64,000 bases of DNA from Panorpa germanica. Taxonomy: Eukaryota > Arthropoda > Insecta > Mecoptera > Panorpidae. The stretch lies in the NCBI GenBank assembly GCA_963678705.1, contig OY783208.1, forward strand, positions 930,001 through 994,000, written 5' to 3'. A program made the position numbers and the translations under genes. The stretch's first letter is position 1. The number at the start of each line of letters is the position of its first letter. A model generated the notes under the pieces. It searched no databases. It saw nothing but the letters and a program-made list of their open reading frames with translations, and was not told where the DNA came from. Below are positions 25,513 through 62,570 of the stretch, piece by piece.

Positions 25513-25559
25513 CCTAATTATTTTTATATTTATTTATTTATTTGCCTTGACTTTTATTC

Positions 25560-25875: not shown

Positions 25876-25964
25876 ATTATTTAACCACATTTTGATTAAA
25901 TTTAAGTTCTTTAAATTCTTTTGTTACTTTTGTTTTTAGTAAACTCTTAAATTGTTCTACCACA

Positions 25965-27585: not shown

Positions 27586-27773
27586 TTATTTTATCAAAAC
27601 AAAGAAAATCAAAACGTATTGTATGTATCAATATCCATTTAAAAAAAAATAATTTTAATTTAAATAAAGATTTATTTACAAAGTATAATAAAAAATTAAT
27701 AATATTAAAGTTAAGAAATATGATTATCCTTTTGTATTATATATATACAAGTATTTAAATATTAACTACGAGA

Positions 27774-28238: not shown

Positions 28239-28449
28239 CACAAGCTATCAACCTAATGATATATAAAAATTAATACAGAAATCATAATTAAGGAGAAAAG
28301 AATGGGTTGAAATATATTTATTTTAATAAAGTAATTAATTTTCTTTTTCTTGATGGTTTTTCATTAACATAAATTATTTTACATTATATTGGTTGATATC
28401 CACACTATCCTTTTATGGTACATATATTATAATAACTATGGCAGCAATC

Positions 28450-29160: not shown

Positions 29161-29512
29161 TTACTAAAATCACAATTAAAGTGTGACGTTTACAAATGAA
29201 CAAAGCACATCACTTGTTTTTGTTTTAAATTAAGACTACAACTGAACTACAGGGTGGGCTAGTTTGTCAAATAGTAGACTACAACGCGTGACGTCACAGC
29301 TTGATATCGTAGGTATTTTTGCGCCTTCTAGATTTCACTAATTTAACAATTAAAATGTGAACCAATTAGTGATTGTTATAAAGAACGATTTCATTGGCTT
29401 AATAAATTATTTCATTTTCTATTGTTGTTATTTTTTGTTTGTTTTAATTTTGTGTCATTTAGTCACAAACGTTTGTATTTATATTGTGAGCTTCGTTTTT
29501 TTAAAGACAAAC
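29161..29512. other. Region upstream of a signal-peptide exon
   Basis: No open frame. TATAAA at 29377-29382 lies about 130 nt before the ATG at 29513. The promoter block of P1-P3 is not present. Confidence 0.35.
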
Positions 29513-29582
29513 ATGTATTTTTCTGGAAGAATATTATTCCTTGGAGTTTTCTTCGTTTTTGTGGTATTTCCTAAAGGCGTTG
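29513..29582 (+). CDS. Signal-peptide exon, candidate first exon of the microexon gene
   Basis: The ATG at 29513 opens MYFSGRILFLGVFFVFVVFP then KGV, and runs to a donor GTGAGG at 29583, ending one base into a codon. Length (70 nt), hydrophobic core and phase-1 ending match the signal exons of P1 (70 nt), P2 (76 nt) and P3 (70 nt). The reading frame otherwise stops nine codons later. It lies 440 bp upstream of the first microexon (30023), but that microexon series reads in phase 0. A connecting exon of 3n+2 nt would be needed and I found no convincing one; the MITE-G-like insert at 29640-29890 may hide or have replaced it. Confidence 0.5.
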
Positions 29583-30022
29583 GTGAGGATACACTTGAAT
29601 TATATTAATCATTTTATTTATATTATCAGCATATGAATTGATTTGACGCGTTCAACGAAATGTCAGTGATATGAACTACAAATGACAAAATCACTTCACC
29701 TGGCCTCACTACCGTACCAGTATTGAATGAAGCTGCAAATAAACCATTCAAGTGTAACGGAGACAGATATATCTTGCTTCTTTTTCTGTGATATTCTAGA
29801 ATTTTATCTCTACTAAAATAAATATTTCAAATGTAAAAGAGACAACTATATCTACATTTAATTGTATGGTGTTGGAAAGAGAAAGAATATTCTTATTACG
29901 TAAAATCAAGATTAAAATATTAGCCGCTGAACTTAAGAAAATACAAAAATATTTCAAAGCAATACTAATTTTGTTTTTTTCTTGTTCTTTATTTTATTGA
30001 TTTATTTTTGTTAATTCTTTAG

Positions 30023-33000
30023 GAACTCAAGGTGAGTTAATAACAGTATAACAATTTCGAATTTAGATTCAGAATAATATTTCGAAGATTTTATATATGG
30101 ATGCAAATGTATATACACAAATAAATGTATGTATGGTTGCATGCTGATCAGGCGTTGAAACAAACATTACATAATACATTTTTTTTAAAAGTTTGTAAGC
30201 GTACTTCTTTATCTTAACATTATTAATTAATTAATTGTGAACCATTGTTTATAAGTAATCTAATTTATTTGTCGTTGTCAATTAACAAATATTATAATTT
30301 GGTTTTGTAAAGCACGTAAGTTTTTATGTTTGTTTTATGCCAGTCCATTAAATAAAGCACTAAATAAATGAAATAAAAGTGAGGTTATGACAGTTTACTA
30401 TAACATAAATCTGATTCGATAATTAACTTAATTTTTAGCCGGTAAGTTCAGCTCCTAATATTTAGTTGATAAAAACATTTCTTTAAGCTATTAAGCAGTG
30501 TTAAATATTAATTTTAATATATGACAATAAAAAAGTATTTTCTTAAATGTAAAACGCCTGATAGGTATGCAACTCAAGTAACACTGATATTTGGTTTGCG
30601 TCTTTACTAATAAATAATCCAATTCACTATATATTGATAAAGTTTTCTACCATATATCTCAAATATACAATGAATTTCTGTCCTATGTCTTCATTTCTAT
30701 AAAAGTGTACTACATATTGATAATGTTGGTTACTAGAACTCCTTATATGTTAGGAGATATTAACAATTAAAAAAGTCATTTTGTCTCTTTAATTATTAAA
30801 GGGGTTCAACGTTGTACACATTCCAAATGCATGTGACATCACAACCGCTGCCAACCTTACAGCTCATAAATCTCTGCTATATGTATTTATATATCAAAAT
30901 ATCAAATATTATTTACAGCTATTTCAAGGAACAATAAAATTACGACATCACTGACCTACTCAACAAATAACTGACGTTAAAATGCATTTCACGTCATACA
31001 AATATAACCGACAATTTCTAGCGCTAAAACTACAATTCAATTTTTAATTGCTATATCTCCGTCAACATTTAGATATTTAATAAAATAGACACGCCAATAC
31101 ACATTTATTAACATCAATTTCAATCAACAATTGAAAAATCCACTAAAGAATAAGGAAACAAGCCCATTGTATTCGTAAATTTAAGCGCCTGATTGGTATG
31201 CAACTCAAGTAACACTGATATTTGGTTTGCGTCTTTACTAATAAATAATCCAATTCACCATATATTGATAAAGTTTTCTACCATATATCTCAAATATACA
31301 ATACGCCAGTACTTTCATAAATGCTGAACTGGACCATGGTATATTATTTATATAATCAATTAAATTTAATCGAAATTATAATAAAACAAAATTGTAACAG
31401 ATTTTACAAAAGTATAATTAATAAATAAATTACATAGAAGTTATGTGTTCCATAATAGTAGCGCTTAACAGCTCAAAAAATAATTGGAAAGCAATCGCAA
31501 ATGTGACAGCTGTAACGAGGAATAATTTAGATTTATATATAAATATAAATTACATTTTAATTGTTTATCACACAAAAAGGTTTGTATTGTTATATATATA
31601 TTGTACATATTCATTTAGAAATTTATATATAAACAAAATAGGTTATAATCTAAAGTAAAAAGTGTCAACAATTCTTAAATGTGAATTAAATTTAATCATT
31701 TTTCTACAGAGATGTTTGTTTTAAATGACAACTAAAGATCTAAAAGGTCTAAGCTGTCTAAAATAGAAATTATTAACTCTGAAACTCAGTGCATGAGATT
31801 GAAAGCATCTTTGGTCCATATCTAAATATCAATAGACCTCATAAATTAAAAACTCTCCATTAAACATTTTCTAATTGTCTTTTCTGGTAATTATTCGATA
31901 TAGCTACACCTTTTGTTTTGAATCTTATAAAAAAACTATTGCACTTTCGTATATTTTATGATGCTTTTATTATAGTAAAAACATGTACAAATCACACGTA
32001 ATGTACATTATACAATTTTTTTATTAAAAAATAGACAGAATTTATGCTTAAAATTGACCAATAAATGTGAAATATGATGTCAGGAAAATTGTCATTTTAT
32101 TTCTAACCTCAAATTTGAAATTTTAACTTTAACCATTAATATTGTCTATTTCTAAATAAAAAGTTGTATAATGTATATTACGTAAGATTTGTACATGTTT
32201 TTAGTATTTCTTTAGTCTTTCTTTACATATATAATAATTTTATATTTTAGTTGTATAACAATGGAAGAAAATTCACCAAGGTCTACCTCTGAAAATGTAC
32301 AAAAAGAAATAGAGTACATAAAAATAGAAGAAGTTATTATCAAAGAAGAATTACATGATGAAGAAATGAAAGATAATTCGGATGAAACATCTCCATGGAC
32401 TGTCAATTGCAGTGTCTGCAACACGACCTGGAGCGACTCTGCTAGCCTACAGGAACATTTAAATTCATCTCCAGAATGTCGAGAAGATATTAAAATCTGT
32501 GAAAAACTCTTCGTTTGCGAAGTTTGTGAAAAAATCTTCTACACACCTGGTGATTTTAAAAGACATTTGGAACACCACGTGATAAAAGGTGTATTTCCAT
32601 GCGAATATTGTAAGAAAACTTACAAAACTAACACTGGTTTGGGTAGGCACACAAAAAAGCACGGACAAGATGGTTCCATCAAAAAGCGCTACCCTTGTGA
32701 TCTCTGTCATAAAAGCTACAACAGAACCCACGATCTTGAAAGACATAAAAAAATGCACAGTCGCGTAAGAGTACATAGTTGCGATGAATGTGGTAAAACA
32801 TTCATCGCAGCAAGTAAACTACAACGTCATAAAGTAACACATTTAAATGAGAAGCCATTCAGTTGTAACCTATGTAAAAAGTTATTTGCACGTGCTGATA
32901 GTTTGAAAGTACATCAAATAACTCACATGAAAAAACAACCGCACGCCTGCAACTTATGCAACAAGTCTTTCGCACGTGCAAGTTACCTAACTGAACACAT

Positions 33001-36000
33001 GAACACGCATTTCGGAAAAACATTTCCATGCGATGAATGCGAAAAATCTTTCACGCGAATTAGCTATTTAACACAGCATAAAAAAACACACTTGGAAAAT
33101 AAACCTTTTGTGTGCGATATTTGTTACAAAACATTTTCTAGGGCTGATAATTTAAAGCTGCATCGAACATCCCATTTAGAAGAGAAACCTTTTAAATGTG
33201 ACTTATGTGACAAATCATTTACAAGGTCGAATAATTTGAAATTGCATAAGAACACACATAGTGAAAGAGATTTGTTTCAGTGTGGAATTTGTGAAAAATC
33301 TTTTACGAGGTCTTATGATTTAAAAGTTCATCAAAATCTTCATAAAGAAGAGAAACAATATTTTTGTGATGAATGTGATAAGAGTTTTGCAAGTCCGAGA
33401 TATTTAACGAAACATAAAGCTACACATTCTGATGTGAAACCGTATTCTTGTAAATTATGTAATAAGTCGTTTACGCAAAAAGTTAATTTGAGATATCATC
33501 TTAATACTTTTGTACACCAGGATGCAGGTCCTGATGTTCACACTCTAGAAAATGTACCGGAAACAGTTTGATGTGTTTTATATCCTAAAAGTTCTCAATT
33601 TTAAAGTTCAAGGTCTTTTTCATCAACAAGTGGAAGATTTAATAATTAAAGAAACTTAAAGACTATTTAATTTTTCTCATAGTCAACTTTATCAATATAT
33701 GGTTAAGGCATGGTTCACAGCCCCACGATGCAGTGGATTGTTATAAACCTCTGAACTAAAATTCCCGCGAATTTTAAAATTATTCATTGTTGATTACATA
33801 GTTGGTAAGAATATTTGCTATTTAAAATTTTAATTGAAAATAGGAAATATTACATTTCAAATAAATATATTATTCTTATTTATAAAAAAAAGCATGTAAG
33901 ATTTCTTTTAAAATATATTTACCAAAAATAATCATTTCTATTTATTAATGATTCATAACTTATAATTTAAGACATAATTAATAATTTAAGTAATTTTTGA
34001 ATTGAAAAGTCTGTATGTAAAATTTTTTTTAGTTATGTTTAAAATTAAATTGTAAAAATGTTGTTAAATTTTTCTACTTTCTGAAATAGGCGGTATTTCA
34101 CTAAAACCATTGTTACTCTTAAACTTATGGTCAAATATCATGAAATTTTGACACATATCGTTTGAAAAATAAATTAAAACAATTCTTTTTATTTTTGTTA
34201 TTAGAATCCCCAGGTATGTAGCTTTATAATTTTTAAGTATTTTTAAATAACAGATTTTAACAAGATATACATAATTTGTTTTGGAAAGTATCATTCCTAC
34301 CCAACTGTTTTAATTTAGAATTTAATTTACATTTTCTTTATTTTTTTAAAACCTTTCCAAGTCCCATGTTTCTAAATTAAATAAAACGCAGTAGGATTTA
34401 TTTTTAAAAGAAGTTCAATGTCAGTTTGTTAAAAATAAAAAAGTAAAAACAATTTCTATTACTAATTGTCTAAAATTTGAATTAGTTGGTATGTTAGAAA
34501 TGAATTAATCATTTGGTTAAACTTTTTATAAAGATAAATATTTAATAAATGAAATTATTTTTTATTTGAATAATAATTATTACTATTTAATATATCTTGC
34601 TTGATATAGACGCCTTACGTATGTGATTTCATCTTAAGTTCATTGACAAATTCACTTTTTAAATAGCAATATCTCGATAACGACGTGGTCAATAATGTTC
34701 ATTTTTCTTTATGATGTCTGTAACTACGATTTTTATAACACATCAAATTTTCATGAAGTTCCTGCATTACGTTTGGAATTTAAACCAACAAATGTGTATT
34801 CTCCATAAGAGCCCGTGGTCTAATTACTCAATTTTGATTTCGTTTCCAATAAAACACATTAAGTTTACTGTGTGAAAATTTGAAGTCGATTGGAGTAAAA
34901 CTGTCGGAGATATAGAGTTTTAAGTCTTCACCTCTCTGGTGTGGTTTCGTCTTATTTTGAAACTTTTAAACGCGTTTTTCTCACACTTAGCTTTTTCAGA
35001 GTGTAACTCAAAATCTACTGCACCGATCCGCAATGAAATTTTGCACACTCTTTCTTTACATAAATGCCGAGGTAACGCTGTCGAGTTACTTAACAGGGTG
35101 TCCTGCAGAAACTTATCAACTAATTAAATCATTTTGGTTTTTTGTTTTTAAATAATCCAGTGATGAGTTATGAGTTACTTTTTTTTTGTGACGTCACCGG
35201 AGATTCGCTGTCAATGGCTCATTTCGTGATATTTATTTATGAAAATTTCACAAAGTATTCTTTAAATGTTATTTTATCATGTAGTAATTACAGAAATAAT
35301 TATATATTAACTGTGTCGTCAATAAACATTATCGAAAATATGCTTTAACAATAAATTTATGCGCCTGAAAAATATGCAATCCTTTATACCTTATAATATG
35401 GTTGCATTTATATTTATCGCGTTTTTAATTATTAATTCTTTATATTAGCATGTAAGTCCTTTTTTTTATTTTTCTTATATAATTTTAAGGTTGTGTAAAA
35501 TATTTAAACACAAAATTTACCGAATTTACAAATTTGCAGGCAGTAAGTTATTTCACTTTTATTAGTTTTTAAAAACGACAAAAATATAACATATAACTGC
35601 GGTACTACTAGGTAATACTAGGGCTGGACAGGTGCACGCCAGGATACATGGTGATGGAGGAGCTAAAGAGGGATAAGATACGAATTAAAACAGGGGAAAG
35701 AGCGGTAAAATACGAGGAGAAATTGAACAGAGCGGAAAGCAAAATCTTAAAGAAAATAAGAGAGGATTACATAAAGAATGGGGGGGGAGGAGGTCCAAAA
35801 AAGAGAAAAGAATACTTTGAAAGGAATGGAATGGCGATCGAGGAGGCAGAGAGGAGAAGAGAAGGTGGCGCAAGTGTGGCAGAGGAGCTAAGGAGAAGGG
35901 ATAAGGAGATACAACAGCAGGAGAGAATGGGAAAAATAGAAAAAAGTAACTACAATAAAAGATATAAGAGGTTATGGGAAAATAATGTGCCTCAGTACCT

Positions 36001-39000
36001 TATAGAAAAAGACATAAAACACATAAGAAGAACAGCAAGGTTTAGATTGGGAAATGAGGAAAAAGGAAACAGATACTGGGAAAAGAGTGAGGAAAGAAAG
36101 TGTAGAATGTGTGGAGCGGAGGACGAAACACTGGAGCACATTAAGTTTGAGTGTAAGGAAAAAGTAGCGAGCGAAAGGAATATTGGCCAGCTATTAAAGG
36201 GAGGCAGTGAAGGAAAGAGGTGGATGGCGGAAATAGTAAGAAGGAAAGGAAAAACAGGAGAATAAACTGGTGGTAATAAGCTGGTGGAGAATAATAGAGA
36301 GGGTCAAAAGAAGAAGAAGCAGAAAGCACTTTTGGAAGTAGTAAAAGTCGAGAAGATTTTAAGTTTATTTTAAGTTTAGTTTTAAGTTTGGAATGTATAT
36401 AGGAATGAAATGTATTAGAAATATAATACTGTAGATTGTAAAGCCGAAAGGCACACACAATTAATATATAAATAATATATTCTTAATTTATTCAAAAACT
36501 GCGGTACTAGTATAGACTTATAGGTTAATAATTTGTTTTCTATCAACAAGTGTATTTTATTTAAAAATCTCTGTAGAATGTAAGTGAATATGGACAATAT
36601 TTCAACAAGAGAAGTAACACGGTTCTCGAAATATCAGCAATTTAATAATAATTACTTATTTATGCACTAGGTGGTTTGTATTTAAATATTTCTCTTACAT
36701 TTAACATCTGCGCAACTGCGTTTTTGGACAATAAATAGCGAATTCGAGTTCCTTAGAATAAATATGATTACTTTTAGGAGGTGCGTAAAAAACAAAATGC
36801 AAGAAAAAATATTACAATGACATTAAAAATTTATAAATAATAATGCTGCTTTATATTTTGGTTTTACTGCTTGTTCATTATTCTAACAAACAGGGAGTGA
36901 AGGTAAATTAGATTCCTTTTAAGTCTATTGTTAACGACAGGTTCAATTGTAGGTTGCATGTAACATAAAAATAAAGCCAGGCGTATTCTGCATTTCCAGC
37001 TTTAAATAAGGCAATTCCTGTGAAGTTTACCATTAAGAAAGCACGTTTTTTAATTGTAAAAATGTCAGAAATACACAATATTAATGGTTAAAGTTAAATT
37101 TTTAAATTTGAGGTTATAAATAAAATGACAATGTTCTACATATAAGTAAAAATGGCGTCATATTTCACATTTATTAGTCAACTTTAAACATAAATTCTGT
37201 CGTTTTTAATAAAAAAAATTGTATAAGGTATATTACGTGTGATTTGTACATGTTTTCACTATAATAAAAGCATCATAAAATATTCGAAAGAGCAATAGTT
37301 TTTTAATGAGATTCAAAACAAAAGGTGTAGCTATATTGAATAATTACCCTAAGCAGTTTATTTCAAAACAAGATATGATTTGCGTTTGCTAATTTGATAT
37401 TTATGTATGAAGACGCTTGTGTGGATATAAAGTTCGTGTTTATTCGGCAAACATTTGAAATACTTACACGAAGACGAACATTTTCGTTTTAGTGTCGGTA
37501 AATAGAGTACATTAAAGCATGTCAAATATTTGTATTATAGTAAATAAGTAACTGTTATGTTTAGCTTGCATGGAAGCTAAAAATGAAGCTAGACGTATTC
37601 TGTATCTCAGTTCTCTGCACGTGATGTCATACAAGCTTCATGCAAGCTTTAAATAAGGTAATTCCTCTGAAGTTTAGCACGTATTTCATTGGGAAAATGT
37701 CAAGTGATGAAGAAGATGTGATTACAGCATACGCTTTTATTAGAAGACGACGAATCAGACGTAGAATGTATTGGCTTCATCCATACATCGAAAAGAACAT
37801 TAACCGCAGATTGTTTGTTGCTGCAAGAGAGTTATCAGAGGATGATTCAATGACTTTTGTCTAGTTTGAGAGCCTTCTTTGTTTAAATGCAAGCTGCAGG
37901 AAAGGTGGACAATAAACCTTACTCTCTTATCGACTTTAAATAATACAAAAATATTAATCAAAAATGATCATATCGTGTCAACAAGTAATGAAACTGTTTG
38001 AAGCAATATAACCTCAAATTTTTTACTTTATTTGTACATATAGATAGTAAGTATACTATTACGTTTTAGACTCTTTCAGATACAGTACACAGTAATACAA
38101 AGGTACTAAAATATTATTATTAAACTGTTAAACAATTTAGCTAGTAAGTATTAAATACCCAAAATAATTTTGAGGTTAAAATATAATAATCTAAAGTTCA
38201 AAGTATTCAATCAAACGGCTAATGATAGCCTGGTTATTTTTTAACAAGTGTCAATCTGTAATGTTGTTAATTAATAAGTTTACAAAAGCATATCGTTTTA
38301 GAGTTATTGTCTATGTTAATGAGTTCCAAATTTACATGTGAACACGTAACAATGATACTAATAGCATCAAAAAACATCATGGTGATGATTTCCAAAACAG
38401 TAACTTCGTCAGAAATGGTTGAAATTTACAGCAATACTGATTAATATATATTTTTTTTATTTCAGACCCCCCAGGTATGTAAGATTTCTAAAATATGTCA
38501 ATTTTATAAAAAACGAAATCAAAATTGAGTAATTTTAACACGTGCTCTTATGGAGAATACACATTTGTTGGTTTAAATTTCAAACGTAATGCAGGAACTT
38601 CATGAAAATTTGATATGTTATAAAAATCGAAGTCACAGACCTCATAAAGAAAAATGGACATTATTGACCACGTCGTTATCGAGATATTGCTATTTAAAAT
38701 GTGAATTTTTCATATTTGTCACGATCATTTCTGTATTACTATGGATGTGTGTGTCGAATAAAAAGAAACCACCAAAATATTGATTTTGGCTAATAAATAT
38801 ATTTATAAAATAAAACTTTGCATTAACAATAAACTTTTTTTTGAGCAATTTCAATTCGGATTTACATGAGTTTTTAGATGTCGTTTTAAAATGCCAGCGT
38901 GTGTGTAATTTTTATTACACACTTTGCAAGAAAACGGGTTTAAACCTAAATGTTTGTTTACATGTTTTTTTAAATAAGCTGCTTGACTAAACGTCTTATT

Positions 39001-54000: not shown

Positions 54001-57000
54001 CTGACAAGAAGATTAAAGAGAACTAAGCCATTTGAGCTAGGATGATGGCTGACAAAAAATGACTTCAAAATATTACCATTTATTAACTTTGTGACTTTAA
54101 AATATGGCTAAAAATTAGGCGAAATTATAAATTTTAAACTATTATATCTCCGTCAATTTTTGGGTCTTTAAAAATTATTATTTTTCTTTTATAAAGTTGA
54201 ACAAATTTTCTTAAGAGTAACTTCTAAATATAGAAATGTTTTTAAGACTTACACATCGCTGTAGACATCAGGAATCCAGTGAGGACCATCATGACCACAA
54301 GCAGGACAATTGTCTTCTTCATGGTGCAGGTTTCTTTCCTTGTCCAATTCCTTCCAGTCCTGATATACCAATTTTTTAACAAGTTGTGCCCGTATTCATT
54401 TCACGTTGTAAAAACCATGTGAAATTAATTACACGTAATCGTTAATTTAATGCAGAGGCGAACTAAATTGTTCTAGTACTCTACATTCTAAGCAATATGG
54501 AGAGAAAATGCTTGACCTGAAAGTGCGTCCAAAATGTGTGCGAGAGAGAAAGGTATATGTTCCTATTTGTTCTCTATGCGCATGCGTCGAAAGTGACAGC
54601 TGTCTAGATATAATAAAATTAAATATGTAAAGAAATGGGCTTGTGTCCTATGTCTTAATTTCTATAAAAGTGTTCTACATATTGATAAAGTTGGTTACTA
54701 GAACTCCTTATATGTTAGGAGATATTAACAAATAAAAAAGTCATTTTGTCTCTTTAATTATTAAAGGGATTCAACGTAGTACACATTCCAAATGCATGTG
54801 ACATCACAACCGCTGCCAACCTTACAGCTCATAAATCTCTGCTATATGTATTTATATACCAAAATATCAAATATTATTTACAGCTATTTCAAGGAACAAT
54901 CAAATTTCAATATTATGTCTGCCTTAGCAGGGTTAAATAAAATGAAAACTTATTATTCTTTGGCTTGACTTGATTGTTTGACTACCAACAGCTACAAAAC
55001 ATTACCACAGCACTGACCTACTCAACAAATAACTGACGTTAAAATGCATTTGACGTCATACAAATATGGGCGACCATTTCTAGCGCTAAAACTACAATTC
55101 AAACTTTTAATTGCTATATCTCCGACAACATTTAGATATTTAATAAAATAGACACGCCAATACAGATTTATTAACATCGACCACTAAAAAATGAGGACAC
55201 AAGCCCATTTGCTTTATCTCGCTTGTTATTTTCTTCTTTTTTTTCACATTAAACATTTTGGAGTCACTTTGCCATCATATTGAAGATTTTTTGTCAATTT
55301 CTCACAGTCATTCATATGAAATGTCTATTTTATTGGCTACAAATGGTGAAACCACTCCACCTGTCGGAATACAAATGAATATAAAGTTGATGCGAACTAT
55401 AATTTAAGAAAGAAACGTCACAAAACAGGACTCTGCACCAAATTGTTTACTTGGTTCATTCATTTTATTCTCCTCTTCCTTTCTTGCTGGATTTTCATCA
55501 AGTCTACTCCACATCTTAATGTGTTCTAATGTCTCCTCTTCCTGCCACCTTCCTCCTTCCTCTATACCTCAATAGCTACTGCCCCTTTCTTCATTCCCAA
55601 GGCTAAAGCACATGATCATTTTGTTTTCTTTTCCCCACGTGTTCTACAAGATATTGCAGCATTCTTTTCTATTCCATTGGCCATTCTAATAGCTTAGTTC
55701 TTTATGTACAAAAGTAAAATTTACATTTATATATATATATATATCTAGTCCGTCACTCACATTTAGGTTATGTTGATTTTCTCATGTCATACTTTGTGAA
55801 TAATTTGTTTTAAAACACAATTTCGAAAATAATTAGGACGTGAGTTTGATTTTATTGTATATATTGATAAAGTTGGTTATCATAACCTCAAATATCTAAT
55901 TATTTTTATTCAAGTCGCGATATTATAGAAGTTATTAACGATTGAAATAATCATTGCTTCCTCACCTTCTTCCCCACTTCCATTTACCATCACTGTTAAA
56001 CAAGAGTAGTGCAAAAGAGATGCATAATTAAACGTCAAAGCATCGACCCATAATGTTTCAATATAATGTCGTGATATAAAACGAAAAATTCATAACATTA
56101 CTTCAGGATTATTACGCAGTAAAACTTTAAATAGATATATACAATTCTTATATTTTGCTCAATCTAAAGGAGGTAAATTATCTTAAAACATTATCATAAG
56201 TTTTATATGCTGATATCTCATAAACTGAAACACTTAACTGAAAAGGAAAAGAGCAACAACATTCAAAAATACGTTAGAAAAGAAAAGAAATACTATTAAC
56301 TATTGGTAACTATTTTTAACGCACAGGATGTGAGTGTAACGGATATTAAATTATAATTATGTAATCCTTGTTCATCCTTTAATTGTCTTTACCATTTTGA
56401 ATATAGTCGGTACGTAAATACAACAAAGTAATTTTTTTAAATTAATTGTACTATATTTTTTATTTTGTTAAAATTATTTTGCTTTTTGTATTTGGTTGTT
56501 TACCCAACAAATTATATCTATGGAATCTACAGTCAGTAAGTGTTCTAGACTATAGTTATATTCCCTTTTTAAATTATAATTCGCTAATTAAAATTAAATA
56601 TTATAATGCTATTAAAAATAGAGAGTAAGTTTAGTCACTGTTTTGATATTAAATTTACGTTTTTATTTAATATTTTAATCCTAATAAGTAATCCTATTAA
56701 TCCTATTAAGTCCTATGCCTTAATTTCTATAAAAGTGTACTACATATTAATAAAGTGGGTTACTAGAACTCCTTATATGTTAAGAGATATTAACAATTAA
56801 AAAAGTCATTTTGTCTCTTTAATTATTAAAGGGATTCAACGTTGTACACATTCCAAATGCATGTGACATCACAACCTTAGAGCTCATAAATCTCTGCTAT
56901 ATGTATTTATATATCAAAATATCAAATATTATTTACAGCTATTTCAAGGAACAATAAAATTTCAATATTATGTCTGCCTTAGCAGGGTTAAATAAAATAA

Positions 57001-60000
57001 AAACTTATAATTCTTTGACTTGACTTGATTATTCGACTACCAACAGCTATAAAACATTACCACAGCACTGACCTACTCAACAAATAACTGACGTTAAAAT
57101 GCATTTCACGTCATACAAATATGGCCGACCATTTCTAGCGCTAAAACTACAATTCAAACTTTTAATTGCTATATCTCCGTCAACATTTAGATATTTAATA
57201 AAATAGACACGCCAATACACATTTATTAACATCAATTTCAATCAACAATTGAAAAATCGACCACTAAATGATGAGGACATAAGACCATTCAGAGAAAGAA
57301 ATTTAGTTAAGAGCAACCCCTGAAATATATGTGACAAATCTAACGCAACTTTAAGTGGCTCAAAATTACTAAATACTAACTGCCTGTTGATTCAGAAAAT
57401 GTTGAAATACCAATAGAACCAAAATTAAAATAATATTTAATTAATTCAATATAACCTTACTAATAAATCAAAATTATTTGTTCAACGCTGCCATCTATGA
57501 TCTTAAAAAATATGTATTGAAAGTTATTTAAAATTTAATATACATACATACTAAATATATAAATAAAATAAATATTAATACAGAAGGAAAGCCACGCCCA
57601 CTTTGGTTTCGATGTTCGTTGCGATTGGTCAACAAGTTACGCGGTAAATTTGAATTTGAAATTTCTAGTGAACACAGCAGGTTGAATTTTGCAGGTAAAA
57701 TAATCTAAGCTTAATATTATATATTACTTGGTGTTGCAAGCAATGCAAAAGTGTGGTGTAACTTAAGTTGCAGAGTGTTCAGGGGCATGAATGTATGAAT
57801 TTCACAATTTGAGGTTAGTTAATTCAGTTGGTGCGCATGCGTCGTTAGTAATATAAATTTTGACAGTTCGATTGAATGTGGAATAATTAAAATTGCTGTT
57901 TTTAATAACAATTAGTAATAGAAATTGTTTTTACTTCTTTATTTTTGACAAACTGACATTGAACTTCTTTTAAAAATAAATCACACTGCGTTTTGACAAA
58001 TTGTCACGTCATTTAAATATATTTTCACGAATTTGCAGATAGTGAGTTACTATTTTCAAATCTCTCTTGTCTCCAGATTGTACCTTGAAAAATCTTAAAC
58101 ATAATAAATACATTTTTAAAGTTGGTGAGTACACATGAATGTACAACATATTAAGTTTATTGTGTGAAAATTTGAAGTCGATTGGAGTAAAACTGTCGGA
58201 GATATAGAGTTTTAAGTCTTCACCTCTCTGGTCTCGTTTCGTCTTTCTTTGAAACTTTTAAACGCGTTTTTCTCACACTTAGCTTTTTCAGAGTCTAGCT
58301 CAAAATCTACTGCACCGATCCGCAATGAAATTTTGCACACTCTTTCTTTACATAAATGCCGAGGTAACGCTGTCGAGTTACTTAACAGGGTGTCCTGCAG
58401 AAACTTATCAACTAATGAAATCATTTTGGTTTTTTGATTTCAAATAATCCAGTGATGAGTTATGAGTTACTTTTTTTGTGACGTCACCGGAGATTCGCTG
58501 TCAATGGCTCATTTCTTGATATTTATTTATGAAAATTTCACAAAGTATTCTTTAAATGTTATTTTATCATGTAATAATTATAGAATTAATTATATAATAA
58601 GTGTGTCGTCAAAAAATATTATCGAAAATATGCTTTTTTATATCGTTTTGACCTTTAATCAAAAATTATTAGCGCGTAAGTTATTCAAATATATTTAAAC
58701 ATTAATATTTTAGAAAATAAGTCAGCTTCCTAATTGAAAATGTTACCCAAATATTATCCAGACCGTAAGTTGGTAAAATAATTCCAGAAGAAAAAATTTG
58801 TTTGATTTTTGCTTGTATCCAAATTTAATTAAAGAAAGAGCGTTTAAACACGAGCCCTGAGTCGGAAATGTTCGGATCTCTATCTCGGAGAGATAGGCCA
58901 CACCCCATTTATGAAATACGAACATTCTTTTCTTGAACATAACCAAATATATTTTCTACTAAATTCAAATCAAACATATCAGACAATTAAAATGATTAAA
59001 AGTGTGTTCAAAATGTGTGCGAAAGAGAAAGGTATATGTTCATATTTGTTCTCTATGCACATGCGTCGAAAGTGACAGCTGTCTAGATATAATAGGGATT
59101 GCGCAACAACTGTAGAGGCAGCACTACTGCCGAAAGTGGAGCGCTCTGGTGTCATAAATGTAAAGGATTGTGATGTAAACAGCGTAGAAATAGTATATGC
59201 ATAGAATAGTATATAAATAAATAATGCAAAAAATAATTAAATTAAGGCCAAACTATAAAATTTTTCAATAAAATATTCAGTTTTTGTAAGTTACTGATAA
59301 ATATTTTTTGTGCTGAAGTTCTGTGGATGCAGAATAGTACTCCTAATGCTGTAAATGTCAGACCAGTTTTCAATTTCGTCAAAGTGATAAGTAATTACGT
59401 TTTTTTATCTATTTTGGTAGATTTTATGTCGGGAAGCATATTCAATAGAAATGCAAATATTGAAAAATTAACACCTGTTAAACTGCTTAACGATTGGTCA
59501 TCATGAATAGAAGTAATTCCATTGAAACCTTGATAATCAGATTTAATAGGATCTGGAGTAATTGGATCACACCCAACATCTTCAACATTCTTTCGTAAAA
59601 TCGGCAAATTAATTATATTATAATATTGGAATGTTTACTTGCACTTCTGCAGTAGTTACACCATCACGGGAATTTATGTTACAAAAAAAATACTTATGTT
59701 CATCTAAAACACTTTCATCAACAATTTCATCAGTTTGACATGTTATACTACGAGTTGTTTTTTGTGGAGTAGCATCAGAAGCATAATGATCTTCAACGCT
59801 CTGTGTTTCAATATCTACATAATTATCCTCTTGAATTTCAATTTCATTATTATTATTATTATTATTATTGATATTCATTTCACTTCGTACATTCCGTTGC
59901 CGTAATCGTTCGAAACGTTCAAATGATTGAGTGGATTTTTTGGTATTTACTTTACCAGGAAAAATTGTTGGTGTGTATGAAGGATGCCGAGGATGTTCTG

Positions 60001-61905
60001 ACTTTTGATTATTCACAAAATGATCACTACAAATGCGTGTATTTTTAGTTAGTTCCCAATCCTTTAGATATTTTCTGAAACACAAATTTTTTAAATTTTA
60101 CTTTTACTTATTACTATTTTATTTATTTCATAAAATAATTATTATATAGTTTAATATTCTATTTTATAATACTTAGCTTTTCAAATTTGATTGTGATTAA
60201 TTAAATTTTTTTATTAAAATAATTTACTTACACATAGTTTTTCACTGCATTTATCCATTGTTGACGTTTAAAGGTTATCCATAGTACTCGCAGGGAAACG
60301 ATAAAATTTCACACTTGTATTTTGGTTTTTGTTTTTATATGGCATATTGAAACAGCCACGGATACAGCACGATACTTTTGAAGAAGACATTACTTAAAAT
60401 TATTTCGATTAGATTAAAAAAATTATTAATTTAACAAATTCCTTATTGTTTTCTATACCACTTGTCACCACTTTGTTTTACATTTTTCACGGTAGTTGGC
60501 GTCAAAGTCATGTTTCTCAATCCCTATAAATATTAAATATGTAAAGAAATTATATTTCTTTAGTTGGTACAAAGCTCGTCTGTCGGTAAAACAGTTTATT
60601 TATATTTATACATATCTACATTATTCTACATCAATATAATGTCATATTTAACAACTGTCACGTATTATATCTAGACAGCTCTGACTTGACAACTGTCACT
60701 TTCGACGCATGCGCATAGAGAACAAATAGCAACATATACCTTTCTCTCTCGCACACATTAATAATACCTTTCTCTCTCGCACACTAATAATAAATTCAAT
60801 TTGTTATAATCAATCTACATACAATACTATTACTATGAACGCTATAGCTGGTAAATATATTTTATAGCTATGTTATGTAACACTCTTGTTCAAACTTAAC
60901 TAAATTTTCAACTCTAAAGACATTTACATCTTTATTTCGTAGTATAGCCTAATTTAGGCAATTTATATTAGTCCAAAAGTATATTTAGAACTTTATAGAT
61001 ATCCATATTAGTCTGCAATCTATCCCACTACATGTTACGTCATAAATATGGCCGACCATTTCTAGTGCTAAAACTACAATTCAAACTTTTAATTGCTATA
61101 TCTCCGTCAATATTTAGATATTTAATAAAATAGACACGCCAATACACATTTATTAATATCTATTCCCAAATAAAGAAGGTAAATTGAATAATTTATTAGA
61201 TTGTATTGTAAATGTAGATAAGGATATTTAAAATACTCAGTTATTGTGATTTTGTTTCTCAGGAAGTAAGTTACTACTTACCTCTGTATTTCTTTTATGT
61301 ACTTTGAACATATAAAAACTAAATGGTGTGTTTCTTTGCTTATGATAAATATTATTTAGGATGTAAGTTAATTTCTGGAACGAAATTTATTAAATTTCTA
61401 TTAATTAGTAACCAAGGAAGATTCTTATCTTATTAAAAAACTAATTCTTCTTGGAAGATTACTTGTTTTACTTATTTATTTATTTCACTGCGCCATCTAT
61501 TATACTACTTTCTAACTAACAGGTTGTAAGCTTTACTAAACGTCACTTTTCACAAGCGATTAAATATTATTAAGTTTTTATTTATAATTGTTTCTATTTT
61601 AATATTATAGACAGTAAGTTAGATTCTATGAAAATATCTCAATTCTATTTTATAATACACACAGGTTTTAATTCTTTTAACTTACTTGCAAATATTTAAT
61701 TTTCTTTTTTGTTTAATTTTATAGTCCGTATGTATAGATAGCCATTTTAAACTATTAATAAATATAAAGTAAAAACATTTATTTCATAAAAAAAACATTT
61801 ATTTACAAAAGTATGTAAGTTTCTGTCTTTTAGGATTTACAATTTTAAATTAGCAAAGCAATTGGGTTGTGAACCATATTCGGAATTTCAATAAAACTGC
61901 ACTGT
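30023..61905 (+). CDS. Gene assembled from single-codon (3-nt) and three-codon (9-nt) exons
   Basis: I count 58 sites where an AT- or pyrimidine-rich stretch ending in AG is followed after exactly 3 nt (50 sites) or 9 nt (8 sites) by a donor such as GTAAGT, GTATGT, GTGAGT or GTAAAT. Read in order in phase 0 they give about 74 codons with no stop; reading the same chain in phase 1 stops within 10 codons, and phase 2 stops later. The exons are about 48% G+C by hand count, far above the flanks, with codons such as CTG, CGC, ACC, GCG and AAG. Introns lacking repeats cluster at 77-123 nt. A terminal exon at 61834 gives D-L-Q-F-stop with AATAAA at 61890. The product would be about 75-80 aa, probably secreted if joined to the signal exon at 29513. 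Function unknown. Other genes lie in its introns. Exon lists are in the next three entries. Confidence 0.6.
30677..31170 (-). mobile_element. MITE-1 copy in a microexon-gene intron
   Basis: Inverted orientation, with a deletion after TTCAAGGAACAATAAAATT. It is flanked by direct repeats of about 125 bp (30547-30672 and 31186-31312) that are nearly identical. Confidence 0.8.
31313..31886. other. Intronic or intergenic AT-rich stretch
   Basis: No gene-like frame or recognised repeat. A good acceptor TTTTTCTACAG at 31700-31710 has no matching donor. Confidence 0.4.
31887..32205. repeat. Repeat F half copy
   Basis: TAATTATTCGATATAGCTAC at the left, continuing to the family's internal TATACAATTTTTTTATTAAA region. 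It lies just upstream of the zinc-finger gene at 32261. Confidence 0.7.
32261..33571 (+). CDS. C2H2 zinc-finger protein, 12 fingers (subfamily A)
   Basis: 436 aa in one coding exon, with the acceptor TATATTTTAG directly upstream (5' UTR intron likely). The acidic N-terminus carries IKIEEVIIKEEL (K-x-E sites). A Cys-rich knuckle CSVCNTTWSDSASLQEHL...C precedes twelve C2H2 fingers from FVCEVCEKIFYTP to YSCKLCNKSFTQK; the last has a stretched His spacing (HLNTFVH). Linkers vary (LNEKPFSC, LEEKPFKC, MKKQPHAC). The N-terminal knuckle and finger count pair it with the gene at 7798. It lies in the long intron between microexons 30439 and 33802. Confidence 0.9.
   Translation: MEENSPRSTSENVQKEIEYIKIEEVIIKEELHDEEMKDNSDETSPWTVNCSVCNTTWSDSASLQEHLNSSPECREDIKICEKLFVCEVCEKIFYTPGDFKRHLEHHVIKGVFPCEYCKKTYKTNTGLGRHTKKHGQDGSIKKRYPCDLCHKSYNRTHDLERHKKMHSRVRVHSCDECGKTFIAASKLQRHKVTHLNEKPFSCNLCKKLFARADSLKVHQITHMKKQPHACNLCNKSFARASYLTEHMNTHFGKTFPCDECEKSFTRISYLTQHKKTHLENKPFVCDICYKTFSRADNLKLHRTSHLEEKPFKCDLCDKSFTRSNNLKLHKNTHSERDLFQCGICEKSFTRSYDLKVHQNLHKEEKQYFCDECDKSFASPRYLTKHKATHSDVKPYSCKLCNKSFTQKVNLRYHLNTFVHQDAGPDVHTLENVPETV
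34650..34845 (-). repeat. Repeat C copy
   Basis: Inverted relative to the 1034 copy: TTAAATAGCAATATCTCGAT through CCAACAAATGTGTATTCTCC. Confidence 0.75.
34855..35345 (+). repeat. Repeat D copy
   Basis: About 490 bp beginning AAGTTTACTGTGTGAAAATT and containing CACCGGAGATTCGCTGTCAA. Other copies: 49195-49660 (inverted) and 58145-58635. All three lie within the span of the microexon gene. Nature unknown. Confidence 0.75.
35608..36496 (+). mobile_element. LINE type X insertion with 13-bp target-site duplication
   Basis: 5'-truncated non-LTR element whose frame (35648-36265, 205 aa) contains YLIEKDIKHIRRTARFRLGN and the knuckle CRMCGAEDETLEHIKFEC. It is flanked by AACTGCGGTACTA at 35595-35607 and 36497-36509. 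It has inserted into the intron between microexons GCA (35540) and AAT (36577). Confidence 0.85.
37075..37348. repeat. Repeat F half copy
   Basis: Right arm of the family ending CAAAACAAAAGGTGTAGC. Confidence 0.65.
37560..37930 (+). pseudogene. Harbinger (HARBI1-like) transposase N-terminal relic
   Basis: An ATG at 37698 opens MSSDEEDVITAYAFIRRRRI then RRRMYWLHPYIEKN and RLFVAAREL, the N-terminus common to PIF/Harbinger nucleases, followed by an early stop. The nuclease core is missing. A further decayed copy of the same 5' region is at 36955-37075. Confidence 0.65.
38538..38716 (+). repeat. Repeat C copy
   Basis: Same orientation as 1034-1203; GGAGAATACACATTTGTTGG to ATCGAGATATTGCTATTTAA. 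Confidence 0.75.
38851..39759 (-). CDS. C2H2 zinc-finger protein, 8 fingers (subfamily B)
   Basis: 302 aa in one coding exon, ATG at 39759, with the acceptor TTGTTTCTAG upstream (5' UTR intron likely). The N-terminus is acidic with KEERIIKEEEL and KIKTEIKEKP (K-x-E sites). Fingers run from FTCEVCYKSFDRK to FSCKVCNKNYTHA. Fingers 6 and 7 are nearly identical (FSC[NS]ECNKTFSQAA), a recent duplication. One linker is extended (LDLKPLNHICDEC). It is the only zinc-finger gene here on the minus strand and lies in an intron of the plus-strand microexon gene. Confidence 0.9.
   Translation of the reverse strand: MEDYNSQQIKLEIDAGLKEDIIEIKEERIIKEEELCDKIKTEIKEKPSVCLQEDAISPRDNKSSIKKLKSTSKSMKPFTCEVCYKSFDRKAKILIHLSVHSTKKIHRCNQCNKTFKYPSLLKLHNDMHLGLKSFSCNECNKTFSQLSNLKRHKNMHLDLKPLNHICDECGKSFTYSSQLKQHKDTHLGLKPFSCDECNKAFSKSSHLKLHKNIHLGLKPFSCNECNKTFSQAAHLKKHVNSHLGLKPFSCSECNKTFSQAAYLKKHVNKHLGLNPFSCKVCNKNYTHAGILKRHLKTHVNPN
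39806..40017. repeat. Short palindromic MITE (GAGAGTTCG family), second copy
   Basis: Inverse ends AGTCCAAATCACGAGAGTTC and GAACTCTCGTAATTTGAACT. Directly upstream of the zinc-finger gene at 38851-39759. Confidence 0.75.
40095..40620. repeat. Foldback element with GC-richer arms
   Basis: Left arm ACGCACGAGGCGGCACGAGG ... CCCGAATCTACCCGAAGCGA and right arm near 40545-40615 (TTCGGGCAGATTCGGGGCTA) are imperfect inverse complements. Both arms contain TTACAACTGTGTTGTTA-like sequence. No coding capacity. Confidence 0.65.
40793..41185. repeat. Repeat F copy with both arms
   Basis: Left AATTGTTCGATATAGCTGCA, right CAAAACAAAGGGTGTAGC; lies in an intron of the microexon gene. Confidence 0.7.
41485..42080 (-). 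mobile_element. Element B copy (long MITE-1 variant)
   Basis: A MITE-1 right end (GTTGTGTCCTATCTATAAAG) up to about 41630 joins the B interior (GGCGCCTGTATGTCTATAGA). The distal end is missing. Confidence 0.7.
42838..43450 (-). repeat. Repeat A, inverted copy
   Basis: Inverse of 1-600, including CTCGGCAAATACTGCCCCCG. Confidence 0.75.
43700..44235 (-). repeat. Tandem duplication carrying repeat C
   Basis: Two direct copies of a unit of about 260 bp (starting GTTCACTTCGCTGTTGCCAC at about 43701 and 43970), each containing a repeat C copy. A local tandem duplication within an intron. Confidence 0.75.
44541..45258 (-). mobile_element. Element B, near-complete copy
   Basis: GGGCTTGTGTCCTATGTCTT at the left; B interior; then the MITE-1 other end TAGATATTTAATAAAATAGA to TTATTAACATCA. 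It shows that B and MITE-1 share both ends. It starts 12 nt after microexon 44521-44529. Confidence 0.75.
45735..46030. mobile_element. MITE-G related element
   Basis: Begins CCCAGTAAACATTTTGGAG and continues into sequence nearly identical to 29640-29890 (ACTACAAATGACAAAATCAC). The right terminus was not seen. Confidence 0.65.
46165..46322 (-). mobile_element. MITE-1 end fragment
   Basis: CGCTAAAACTACAATTCAAA to TCAATCAACAATTAAAAA; only about 150 bp remain. Confidence 0.7.
47065..47775 (-). mobile_element. Element B copy
   Basis: Interior from GGCGCCTGTATGTCTATAGA, joined to the MITE-1 end at about 47635-47770; left terminus missing. Confidence 0.7.
48170..48430 (-). repeat. Repeat A, truncated copy
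   Basis: Starts CTAGAGTTTACCCCCGTCGC and breaks at CTAGCACAATTTTTAC, where MITE-1 sequence begins. Confidence 0.7.
48430..48884 (-). mobile_element. MITE-1 copy, right end missing
   Basis: From AGATTCCAAATGCATGTGAC to AGGACACAAGCCCAT; inverted orientation. Confidence 0.8.
49016..50778 (-). CDS. Small secreted Lys-rich peptide precursor (P2)
   Basis: Three exons on the minus strand: 50778-50703, 49781-49734 and 49110-49016, all joined in phase 1 with good GT-AG sites. Total 219 nt, 72 aa. Exon 1 encodes a signal peptide (MKLKSFFVLFAIMLVFTEIV then TSFPV). Exon 2 is 48 nt, exactly the length of P1 exon 2, giving IDAMSNNLMDDQGAV. Exon 3 encodes DNLVAANDGGRFARKAAKPK then GAKPKCLFINN. GGRFARKAA is shared with P1. 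The cationic C-terminus resembles antimicrobial-type peptides, but no named family is recognised. Intron 2 holds a repeat D copy. The weakly supported microexon GTA (50449) lies in intron 1 on the other strand. Confidence 0.75.
49195..49660 (-). repeat. Repeat D, inverted copy in P2 intron
   Basis: Inverse of 34855-35345, nearly the same length. Confidence 0.75.
49785..50700. other. P2 intron 1 and AT-rich sequence
   Basis: AT-rich, with short C-rich runs (ACCCCCACCCCACCCC near 50140 and again near 50300). No further exon was recognised on the minus strand. Confidence 0.4.
50825..50871 (-). promoter_or_regulatory. Core promoter of P2
   Basis: Read on the minus strand: AATGAATAGGGGCACATAGT (50871-50852) then CATATAAG (50832-50825), 46 nt before the ATG. 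It matches the P1 and P3 promoter blocks. A degraded similar block (TGAAATTAATACGGG) occurs near 50965-50985. Confidence 0.65.
51060..51235 (+). repeat. Repeat H copy
   Basis: GCATGCGTCGTTAGTAATAT to TGCGTTTTGACAGATTG, repeated at 57832-58010 and inverted at about 34385-34470. Confidence 0.7.
51240..51485 (+). other. Short open frame, not recognised
   Basis: An ATG at 51353 reads MDHKIYSNKQIKHFFIHQSK then EKEPSQAAALGSI and runs into MITE-1. It could be a truncated transposase N-terminus; no family is assigned. Confidence 0.25.
51486..52078 (-). mobile_element. MITE-1 copy
   Basis: Near-complete, inverted: GAGCTTGTGTCCTATGTCTT to GAGGACACAAGC. Confidence 0.85.
52105..52272 (+). repeat. Repeat C copy abutting the P3 stop codon
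   Basis: It ends within about 5 nt of the stop codon of P3, so the P3 3' UTR must run through it. Confidence 0.7.
52276..54322 (-). CDS. Secreted histidine-rich peptide precursor (P3)
   Basis: Two exons on the minus strand: 54322-54253 and 52427-52276, joined in phase 1 (donor GTAAGT, acceptor TTCATTTTCAG). 222 nt, 73 aa. Exon 1 is a signal peptide (MKKTIVLLVVMMVLTGFLMS). The mature part begins near C-D-P-R-P and continues with four His clusters (7, 5, 4 and 4 residues) separated by Gly or Gly-Tyr, then an acidic stretch IADDDYDGNDGES and TEIIPIGK at the C-terminus. EIIPIGK is shared with P1. His clusters suggest zinc, copper or nickel binding, or pH-dependent membrane activity; this is inference. 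The intron holds two LINE fragments, and a further small exon there cannot be excluded. Confidence 0.75.
52630..53620 (+). mobile_element. LINE type Y fragment, copy 2, in P3 intron
   Basis: Nearly identical to 6480-7440. Encodes FMWIPGHCGIRGNEIADKLA (RNase H with Asp retained) and, after the shared 13-bp insertion, the CQCGEEGTLDHIIFEC knuckle. The 3' end is an (AAAT)n tail near 53605-53620. Confidence 0.8.
53647..54035 (+). mobile_element. Jockey-like reverse-transcriptase C-terminal fragment
   Basis: Reads LGIRYKKMYRLMGRKSTLSI then NKLMVYQQILKPVWTWNG and, after frame breaks, VTTVAEEI and LKRTKPFEL, the thumb and C-terminus of Jockey-clade elements. Inactive. Confidence 0.75.
54361..54400 (-). 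promoter_or_regulatory. Core promoter of P3
   Basis: On the minus strand AATGAATACGGGCACAACTT (54400-54381) then GGTATATCA (54369-54361), about 40 nt before the ATG. Same arrangement as P1 and P2, with a weaker TATA box. Confidence 0.6.
54490..54635 (+). repeat. Duplicated segment with the empty site of the THAP element
   Basis: ATGCGTCGAAAGTGACAGCT then GTCTAGATATAATAAAATTA matches the two flanks of the THAP element at 59095-60524, without the element. A third, inverted copy is near 60660-60775. Confidence 0.75.
54636..55211 (-). mobile_element. MITE-1, near-complete inverted copy
   Basis: ATGGGCTTGTGTCCTATG to GAGGACACAAGCCCAT. Confidence 0.85.
55240..55700. mobile_element. MITE-G related sequence followed by decayed LINE type X
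   Basis: 55240-55445 has AAACATTTTGGAGTCACTTT and a right end resembling GCACCAAATTGTTTAC. 55450-55700 on the minus strand retains EETLEHIKMW, the decayed knuckle of LINE type X. Confidence 0.55.
55701..56169. other. AT-rich spacer in a microexon-gene intron
   Basis: TA microsatellite near 55730. A 12-nt acceptor-donor pair at 56107-56118 was considered as an exon but not accepted. Confidence 0.4.
56700..57291 (-). mobile_element. MITE-1 copy
   Basis: Near-complete inverted copy, from AAGTCCTATGCCTTAATTTC to GAGGACATAAGACC. It inserted soon after microexon 56622. Confidence 0.8.
57290..58010 (+). repeat. Repeat E copy followed by repeat H copy
   Basis: 57290-57800 matches 19160-19690; 57832-58010 matches 51060-51235. 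Confidence 0.75.
58145..58635 (+). repeat. Repeat D copy
   Basis: Matches 34855-35345 closely; same orientation as the microexon gene. Confidence 0.75.
59095..60524 (-). mobile_element. THAP-domain DNA transposon, defective, copy 2
   Basis: About 1.43 kb, nearly identical to 20071-21502, flanked by TA. It differs in the number of Asn codons and a few substitutions. It shares the frame disruption after FYRFPASTMDN and lacks a DDE core, so both copies were mobilised in trans. Confidence 0.8.
61021..61163 (-). mobile_element. MITE-1 end fragment
   Basis: CCACTACATGTTACGTCATA to ACACATTTATTAATATC. Confidence 0.7.
61890..61895 (+). terminator. Polyadenylation signal of the microexon gene
   Basis: AATAAA 56 nt after the start of the candidate terminal exon at 61834, at a normal distance for an mRNA 3' end near 61905-61920. 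Confidence 0.45.
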
Positions 61906-62150: not shown

Positions 62151-62570
62151 TTAGGTAGGGGTCCCAATATTATTTGGAATGTATGTTGCGTTATCCATGA
62201 TAATTATGAATGGCTCTTGTAAATTGGGAATAAGTCGTTCTTTGAGCCATTTCTTGGACAATTCCTCTTTCATATCATGGTAATCCAATATCTGACAATT
62301 TGTTGAAAATATTAGTGGCGCATTCTCTACTGAAATTAGTTTGCAAATAATTAATGTTTCAAAATACTTTTTAAGTGCATACTTCTAAATATATTCTTAC
62401 ATTGAAAATTCTTCTCATAAATTAATCGCTAATTAATCGGCATCTTTAACAAATTCATCTTCATCTTCCGACGGAGCTTTGATACGATTACGTGTTTTCT
62501 GTGGTGAAATGGGTACTCCAGAACCAGCATCAACTACACGCTTTTTGACACTCACAGCGATTTTTCTCCT
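62151..62570 (-). pseudogene. Decayed DDE_3 (Tc1/mariner superfamily) transposase
   Basis: The minus strand at about 62330-62151 reads LDYHDMKEELSKKWLKERLI then PNLQEPFIIIMDNATY, the second catalytic-Asp region of DDE_3 transposases. Upstream, 62570-62440 reads VVDAGSGVPISPQKTRNRIK then APSEDEDEF, like the linker before the DDE core. The intervening parts are lost. Confidence 0.55.

Follow-up and report, generated by a model that had tools for sequence, protein, structure and literature searches.

A probable gene assembled mainly from three-nucleotide exons in Panorpa germanica

How small can the exons of a gene become, and how many such exons can follow one another? The question is raised by a 64-kb stretch of Panorpa germanica DNA (bases 930001-994000 of contig C5, OY783208.1, + strand; this whole stretch is the window, and positions are given within it), in which splice acceptors and donors lie exactly 3 nucleotides (nt) apart dozens of times in succession. 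The original prediction for this DNA, a gene composed mainly of 3-nt exons, is borne out by the splice-site consensus, a floor on intron length, phase-1 coding continuity in genomic order and similar loci elsewhere in the genome. We put at about 0.88 the probability that 29.5-62.4 kb is a protein-coding gene consisting of a signal-peptide exon, about 56 phase-1 micro-exons and a short last exon, with a secreted product of 10 cysteines; we presume that this gene is expressed.

Splice sites three nucleotides apart

The pattern AG-N3-GT[AG][AT]G occurs 45 times on the + strand of the window, and 43 of these matches lie within 30023-61905, where every other spacing (k) from 0 to 30 yields 0-9 matches and the - strand yields 6 at k=3. 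The fifty pairs that had been predicted on the + strand are thus about right in number: 43 by pattern, 52 at looser limits that admit weaker sites, some of them clearly false, and 50 retained in the gene model. Eight pairs 9 nt apart had been claimed as well; a smaller peak is indeed present, with 7 matches by pattern in the same interval and 4 with independent matrices, and about five (5 in the model) are left. The exons were also expected to be rich in G+C (about 48%) for such AT-rich DNA, and the micro-exons of the model have 47% as compared to 29% for the window.

Since training on the tested data was to be avoided, splice matrices were rebuilt from 75 pairs on other chromosomes only. With these, 29500-62400 (+) contains 41 pairs at k=3, while the mean over k=1-60 minus 3, 6 and 9 is 1.14 and the highest other count is 4; at k=3 there are 3 pairs on the - strand of that interval, 0 in bases 1-29500 (+) and 0-4 in each of twenty third-order Markov sequences, in agreement with the predicted excess over randomised sequence. 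Site statistics were taken on 41 of the 43 pattern pairs, omitting the AG at 36104 (in a copy resembling a long interspersed nuclear element, LINE) and that at 38896 (opposite a zinc-finger open reading frame, ORF). At positions outside the search pattern, donor +6 is T in 32 of the 41 and acceptor -3 is G in none.

The counts for both strands and the neighbouring DNA had been expected to peak at 3 and 9 in this strand and interval alone. The peak at 3 is there and that at 9 is weaker, and across 264 kb the confinement holds with two exceptions, a second + strand cluster on C5 of about 20 triplets (window-equivalent 86109-101556) and isolated pairs on both strands. The same 264 kb has an excess of spacings 13 and 16 (27 and 32 on the + strand, 48 and 37 on the -), perhaps from a repeat family. 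A search of Rfam at gathering scores gave no match.

Exon order, phase and further loci

We note that a row of paired sites need not be read in order, and the codons that arise across exon junctions bear on this point directly. The junction test used 154 exons, picked solely on score, from eight stretches (those of the window gene and the second C5 cluster, one on C4, three on C8 and two on C13; C-numbers are contigs of the same assembly, whose 464 Mb in 249 contigs were covered by the genome-wide searches), and a junction codon was read as the last base of one exon plus the first two of the next. Adjacent junction codons include 1 stop among 146 and 20 cysteines, as compared to 11.8 stops and 8.7 cysteines expected from order shuffles within stretches, and none of 100000 shuffles attains either observed value; next-but-one junctions, with one exon skipped, include 15 stops among 138. 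With the window gene omitted, there are 0 stops versus 7.3 expected (4 of 100000 shuffles) and 13 cysteines versus 6.3 (90 of 100000), and the removal of one repeat-borne pair leaves 2 stops in 144 junctions, still with 0 of 100000 shuffles. The triplets are therefore joined in genomic order by introns that follow codon position 1, and each 3-nt exon accordingly spans two codons, completing one with its first two letters and opening the following one with its third. The signal-peptide exon at 29513-29582 ends in this same phase.

The original prediction had counted 74 codons (50 plus 8 x 3) in a shared frame without stops, which implies that one exon is one codon. Phase 0 is indeed open in the window, and it is the equation of exon with codon that the junction codons overturn. 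Phase 0, in which codons are independent of exon order, gives 4 stops in 166 codons over the loci and was rejected, as was phase 2, with 17 stops in 138 junctions.

Several results tell against so simple an account of order and phase. At stricter score limits the effect persists, but the junctions contain 4 stops in 122, 2 in 110 and 2 in 100 (expected 10.5, 10.0 and 8.8), with 0-8 of 2000 shuffles having as few, and 16, 13 and 9 cysteines versus 7.5, 6.6 and 4.9 expected, the last value being attained by 2% of shuffles; the effect is less clean at these limits because lost exons break up neighbours. Phase 0 too is free of stops when the strong exons of the window are taken by themselves, and a chain of all candidates, built on the condition that no stop occurs, scores 417.9 in phase 0, 408.1 in phase 1 and 385.9 in phase 2, a test that draws little on exon order.

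The distances between exons point the same way as the junctions. Although exons were again chosen by score alone, with a floor of merely 10 nt on their distance, 2 of the 147 gaps over the eight loci are below 77 nt and 32 measure 80-99 nt. We attribute this floor near 77 nt to a minimum intron length; scattered motifs do not explain the gaps.

The window gene is one of several such genes in the genome. A genome-wide pattern of three triplets 70-100 nt apart gave 21 matches, 10 of them within three tandem arrays, versus 50 for a backwards control, the positions of whose matches were not listed. Seven of the other 11 matches, on C4, C8 and C13, have surroundings dense in scored triplet exons (9-17 per 3.2 kb); the remaining four have not. 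Pooled, these dense stretches (22.3 kb) contain 65 pairs at k=3, of which two or three per match stem from the selection itself; each of the other spacings up to 30 is represented by 0-4 pairs. Since the triple pattern misses the window gene itself, there are likely more such genes than were found.

In the second C5 cluster a repeat copy carries two good AG-NNN-GT sites (C5:1020804 and C5:1020970, window-equivalent 90804 and 90970), which recur in another repeat copy; a related position in the window is 57383-57550 (-). Without these sites the chain of this cluster gains a stop, and repeat-borne 3-nt exons are therefore possible. DNA searches for paralogues of 61170-61905 gave matches elsewhere only in its last 60 bases or so (best 40 of 60 candidates), and those for 29400-30445 matched only through the repeat in the first intron (best 40 of 1648 candidates).

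The gene model and its product

The model joins a signal-peptide exon, 56 micro-exons (fifty of 3 nt, five of 9 nt and one of 12 nt) and a last exon, and it admits only exon lengths in multiples of 3. Its predicted protein, MYFSGRILFLGVFFVFVVFPKGVGTQVSPVAFFDALPCKCGGSEDTNPPGCSCTEQNKPPGCVVNVCTEVGCVCRRGFVKNIAHPEGRCYILFCK, has 95 residues, encoded by 288 nt within 32838 bp (0.9%). One of its 10 cysteines comes from the uncertain exon at 45503 and one from the proposed last exon. The exons are listed below; those without a remark belong to the list obtained by score alone, which contains 50 of the 56 micro-exons.

29513..29582, +, putative first coding exon: signal peptide MYFSGRILFLGVFFVFVVFPKGV plus 1 nt; donor gtgaggat, phase 1 end
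30023..30031, +, 9-nt exon GAACTCAAG
30192..30194, +, 3-nt exon TTT
30313..30315, +, 3-nt exon CAC
30439..30441, +, 3-nt exon CCG
33802..33804, +, 3-nt exon TTG
33893..33895, +, 3-nt exon CAT
34010..34012, +, 3-nt exon TCT
34486..34488, +, 3-nt exon TTG
34610..34618, +, 9-nt exon ACGCCTTAC; score-only list, within a repeat copy and less sure
35449..35451, +, 3-nt exon CAT
35540..35542, +, 3-nt exon GCA
36577..36579, +, 3-nt exon AAT
36671..36673, +, 3-nt exon GTG; under the score-only limit, admitted by frame
36778..36780, +, 3-nt exon GAG; under the score-only limit, admitted by frame
36894..36902, +, 9-nt exon GGAGTGAAG
38044..38046, +, 3-nt exon ATA
38141..38143, +, 3-nt exon CTA
38466..38474, +, 9-nt exon ACCCCCCAG
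40752..40754, +, 3-nt exon GAT
41242..41244, +, 3-nt exon GCT
42180..42182, +, 3-nt exon CAT
42727..42729, +, 3-nt exon GCA
42818..42820, +, 3-nt exon CTG
43519..43521, +, 3-nt exon AAC
43640..43642, +, 3-nt exon AGA
44404..44406, +, 3-nt exon ACA
44521..44529, +, 9-nt exon AACCACCCG
45282..45284, +, 3-nt exon GAT
45364..45366, +, 3-nt exon GCG
45503..45514, +, 12-nt exon TCGTCAACGTAT; uncertain, gives one cysteine, and the Pfam TIL match hinges on it
45696..45698, +, 3-nt exon GTA
46079..46081, +, 3-nt exon CTG
46379..46381, +, 3-nt exon AAG
46726..46728, +, 3-nt exon TTG
46814..46816, +, 3-nt exon GAT
47808..47810, +, 3-nt exon GTG
47906..47908, +, 3-nt exon TTT
48160..48162, +, 3-nt exon GCA
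55837..55839, +, 3-nt exon GAC
56170..56172, +, 3-nt exon GAG; under the score-only limit, admitted by frame
56327..56329, +, 3-nt exon GAT
56407..56409, +, 3-nt exon TCG
56533..56535, +, 3-nt exon TCA
56622..56624, +, 3-nt exon AGA
58039..58041, +, 3-nt exon ATA
58122..58124, +, 3-nt exon TTG
58673..58675, +, 3-nt exon CGC
58762..58764, +, 3-nt exon ACC
60848..60850, +, 3-nt exon CTG; score-only list, weak donor
61176..61178, +, 3-nt exon AAG; weakest of all, admitted by frame
61263..61265, +, 3-nt exon GAA; strong donor, low acceptor score, admitted for fit
61360..61362, +, 3-nt exon GAT
61523..61525, +, 3-nt exon GTT
61611..61613, +, 3-nt exon ACA
61725..61727, +, 3-nt exon TCC
61812..61814, +, 3-nt exon TAT
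62340..62350, +, candidate last coding exon, ..F C K stop; a choice among many acceptors

Both end exons are inferred. The first was chosen by hydropathy and donor score rather than by a signal-peptide program, and in 22000-30023 it is the sole ATG exon with a donor that passes the hydropathy limit; its ATG is preceded by ACAAAC. For the last exon an alternative acceptor at 62316 leads to the same stop in the same frame. The donors of the 56 micro-exons are near GTAAGT (+3 A in 44, +5 G in 52, +6 T in 47), donors having been part of the exon choice, and 20 of these exons end in G.

The model is open to objection in several respects. Six exons below the score limit (36671, 36778, 45503, 56170, 61176 and 61263) were admitted for fit. 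The model excludes two 9-nt members of the score-only list, 34205, with which phase 1 would acquire a stop, and 34411, whose letters also occur in copies of a repeat, and it excludes a 3-nt candidate at 46519. It is probably incomplete, and the long introns around 40.7-42.7 kb may hold some of the absent exons. A search for a first (signal-peptide) exon of the second C5 cluster found none. In addition, introns of the gene contain zinc-finger ORFs at 32216-33571 (+) and 38851-39774 (-), of which the first is on the same strand.

All 57 introns are in phase 1, with a shortest length of 77 nt and a median of 160. An origin from introners, in which the introns would all descend from copies of a single element, was considered and rejected: none of the 26 introns of 130 nt or less matches another, the single exception among them being a 17-nt match to a 7.7-kb intron, and the intron-intron matches among those listed are between longer, repeat-filled introns. 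The first intron holds a short repeat element (29634-29896), with 39 other copies, 85-94% identical, on many contigs among the best 40 of 1648 candidates. By eye, seven long C2H2 zinc-finger ORFs were seen at 7768-39774, of which 32216-33571 was tested with Pfam; the window also contains RNase H ORFs. Together with the trypsin-like exon and the TIL domains described below, these ORFs point to an animal source, probably an insect. A repetitive ORF of 202 amino acids at 12037-12645, with GHRFARQAEF and KPEIIPI repeats, a basic C-terminus and no Pfam family, could encode a precursor of a repeated secreted peptide.

How might such a gene be spliced? Two spliceosomes cannot sit across 3 nt, nor can exon definition span that distance, and for the former reason joining would most likely be sequential and intron-defined, starting from the 5' end. 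In each step the growing 5' exon would be joined to the next AG-NNN, which would create the next donor, NNN|GTAAGT, a scheme resembling recursive splicing with a 3-nt step. Since every exon length is divisible by 3 and the phase is shared throughout, a skipped exon costs a residue and causes no frameshift; if this is exploited, single residues could be included or omitted at dozens of places, which would give cells large pools of near-identical proteins. We speculate, and would sooner doubt than assert, that a family of perhaps tens of genes builds secreted proteins by such ratchet-like 3-nt steps, with single-residue variants arising from one locus. Dozens of consecutive 3-nt exons would lie beyond exon definition and would offer a natural test of 3-nt ratchet splicing, and so extremely chopped-up a gene challenges ideas on the smallest exon that the splicing machinery handles. 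Normal annotation and read alignment fail to reveal such genes, and others may therefore be missed.

The predicted protein is cysteine-rich and secreted, and is perhaps TIL-like, although this is not proven; on balance we favour a protease inhibitor of the TIL type. The C-terminal 45 residues match Pfam TIL (PF01826) with an E value of 0.0031 and 18.1 bits, missing the curated cut-off of 24.5. In PDB, searched at E values up to 10, the mature model has a single match, over most of its length, to the chymotrypsin inhibitor 1ccv (E=3.6). Shuffle tests used a profile built from nine TIL domains of the same genome: the completed window model is equalled by 42 of 5000 exon shuffles and the C13 chain VCYENEIKYLATNDVCFEVCPDKVEAL by 15 of 2000, and a score-only chain from C8 (C8b) by 0, 0 and 49 of 500 at limits 8, 9.5 and 10.5. 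Eight cysteines are attained by 0 of 5000 exon shuffles; the model has 9 before the last exon. The better TIL scores are flattered, since TIL guided the completion of the model.

Against a TIL product stands a considerable list. Neither the full model nor the mature model has any match in Pfam, the C-terminal part has none once the uncertain exon at 45503 is removed, and there are weak matches to D_CNTX (E 0.33, for the C-terminal 45 residues) and Cyclotide (E 0.25) as well. The only PDB match of an earlier chain is an unrelated phage protein, and that of the C13 chain an unrelated protease. For chains built by score alone the shuffle test is mixed: at limits 8, 9.5 and 10.5 the window chain is equalled in 7, 391 and 333 cases out of 500, and another C8 chain (C8a) shows no signal. 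Profile-guided chaining was rejected as unspecific, with a score of 43.6 for TIL, 42.3 for reversed TIL and 36.4 (standard deviation 4.5, highest 47.5) for shuffled TIL columns. The protein search found no homologue. Nor did it yield a relative, at E 1e-5, for a trypsin-like exon just past the gene at the window edge (63474-63998, -; Pfam E=8e-19), and the collection may therefore contain few insect proteins.

The genome also holds 25 ordinary TIL domains on C3, C5, C8, C11 and C17, each in one stretch without inner stops and several of them clustered. Of 10 such loci that were read, 8 have as their best-scoring acceptor one that starts the exon at codon position 2 (phase 1), and the other 2 have no acceptor above the limit. 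Possibly these domains are the source stock of the micro-exon genes. If the latter do encode TIL inhibitors, the one-exon copies would reveal the way in which about 50 introns of the same phase came into a compact gene.

Alternatives and known systems

We considered four other explanations. That AG-NNN-GTAAG words arose by chance or composition in AT-rich DNA might be suspected because the triplets were first found by eye, and the triple pattern was outnumbered by its backwards control; the Markov and opposite-strand counts at k=3, the effect of exon order and the lack of relationship among the short introns (bar the one 17-nt match) leave the probability of this next to nil. Alternatively, the sites could serve recursive splicing or regulation within long introns, the triplets being absent from mRNA or noncoding. 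An AG beside a strong GTAAGT does resemble the ratchet points of long insect introns, but the spacing is 3, less often 9, and not 0, and triplets taken in order give nearly stop-free, cysteine-rich junction codons that next-but-one neighbours do not, which makes this account quite improbable. A decaying relic of a gene formerly spliced from 3-nt exons would fit the many repeat-filled introns and some weak sites; given a single stop among the 146 junctions and the strong sites seen across the eight loci, we consider it highly improbable.

The last alternative concerns the kind of gene rather than its existence: rather than encode a TIL inhibitor, the locus might belong to an effector family, that of the aphid bicycle genes or one like it, for which its exons would be unusually short. 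Aphid telomeres consist of TTAGG, and (TTAGG)6 was not found in the assembly, a search that is less reliable for simple repeats. In the parts of PMC9168663 drawn on here, bicycle genes have about 17 exons on average, diverge fast and have internal exons that nearly all start at codon position 2, and their products are secreted proteins with cysteine motifs; the megacycle gene uses more than 100 microexons for some 2000 residues, with up to about 20 residues per exon. The likeness to the window gene thus lies in many small exons of one phase that start at codon position 2 and in a secreted cysteine-rich product. The predicted protein, however, has CKC, CSC and CVC and no CYC (some bicycle homologues also lack the C-Y-C motif, PMC9168663), and its C-terminal half is TIL-like. 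We regard a bicycle-type gene as unlikely and retain the reading of a micro-exon gene, perhaps with a TIL-type product.

Within the open-licence literature, as far as the sources were covered and with most subscription papers outside its scope, no gene made mainly of 3-nt exons was found, and we therefore call the window gene a new, extreme variant of the micro-exon gene. Its ordinary TIL counterparts (PF01826) share with it a predicted secreted product, 10 cysteines, a GCxC..GF core and the phase-1 acceptor, and differ in carrying the domain on one exon, which the window model spreads over dozens. Recursive splicing proceeds through ratchet exons of zero nt, in which an AG lies just before a strong donor, available to the ligated upstream exon for the following step; the window gene has the same order of AG and strong donor, but the 3 nt kept at each step would enter the mRNA.

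In architecture, on which alone they were compared, the schistosome micro-exon genes (MEGs) come close. As described in the parts of PMC4671649 and PMC4350168 consulted, these encode small secreted proteins from a 5' exon with a signal peptide and central symmetrical microexons of less than 36 bp (26 of 33 being symmetrical in MEGs 26-32), whose skipping can be neutral to the frame. The window gene likewise has mostly tiny symmetrical exons, a predicted signal peptide in its first exon and a secreted product, but 50 of its 56 micro-exons measure exactly 3 nt. Single 3-nt exons are spliced in Ncam, Drosophila TnT and homothorax (PMC8042270, PMC7392893, as far as drawn on here), each an otherwise normal gene with one such exon, whereas the Panorpa germanica gene would join dozens of them consecutively.

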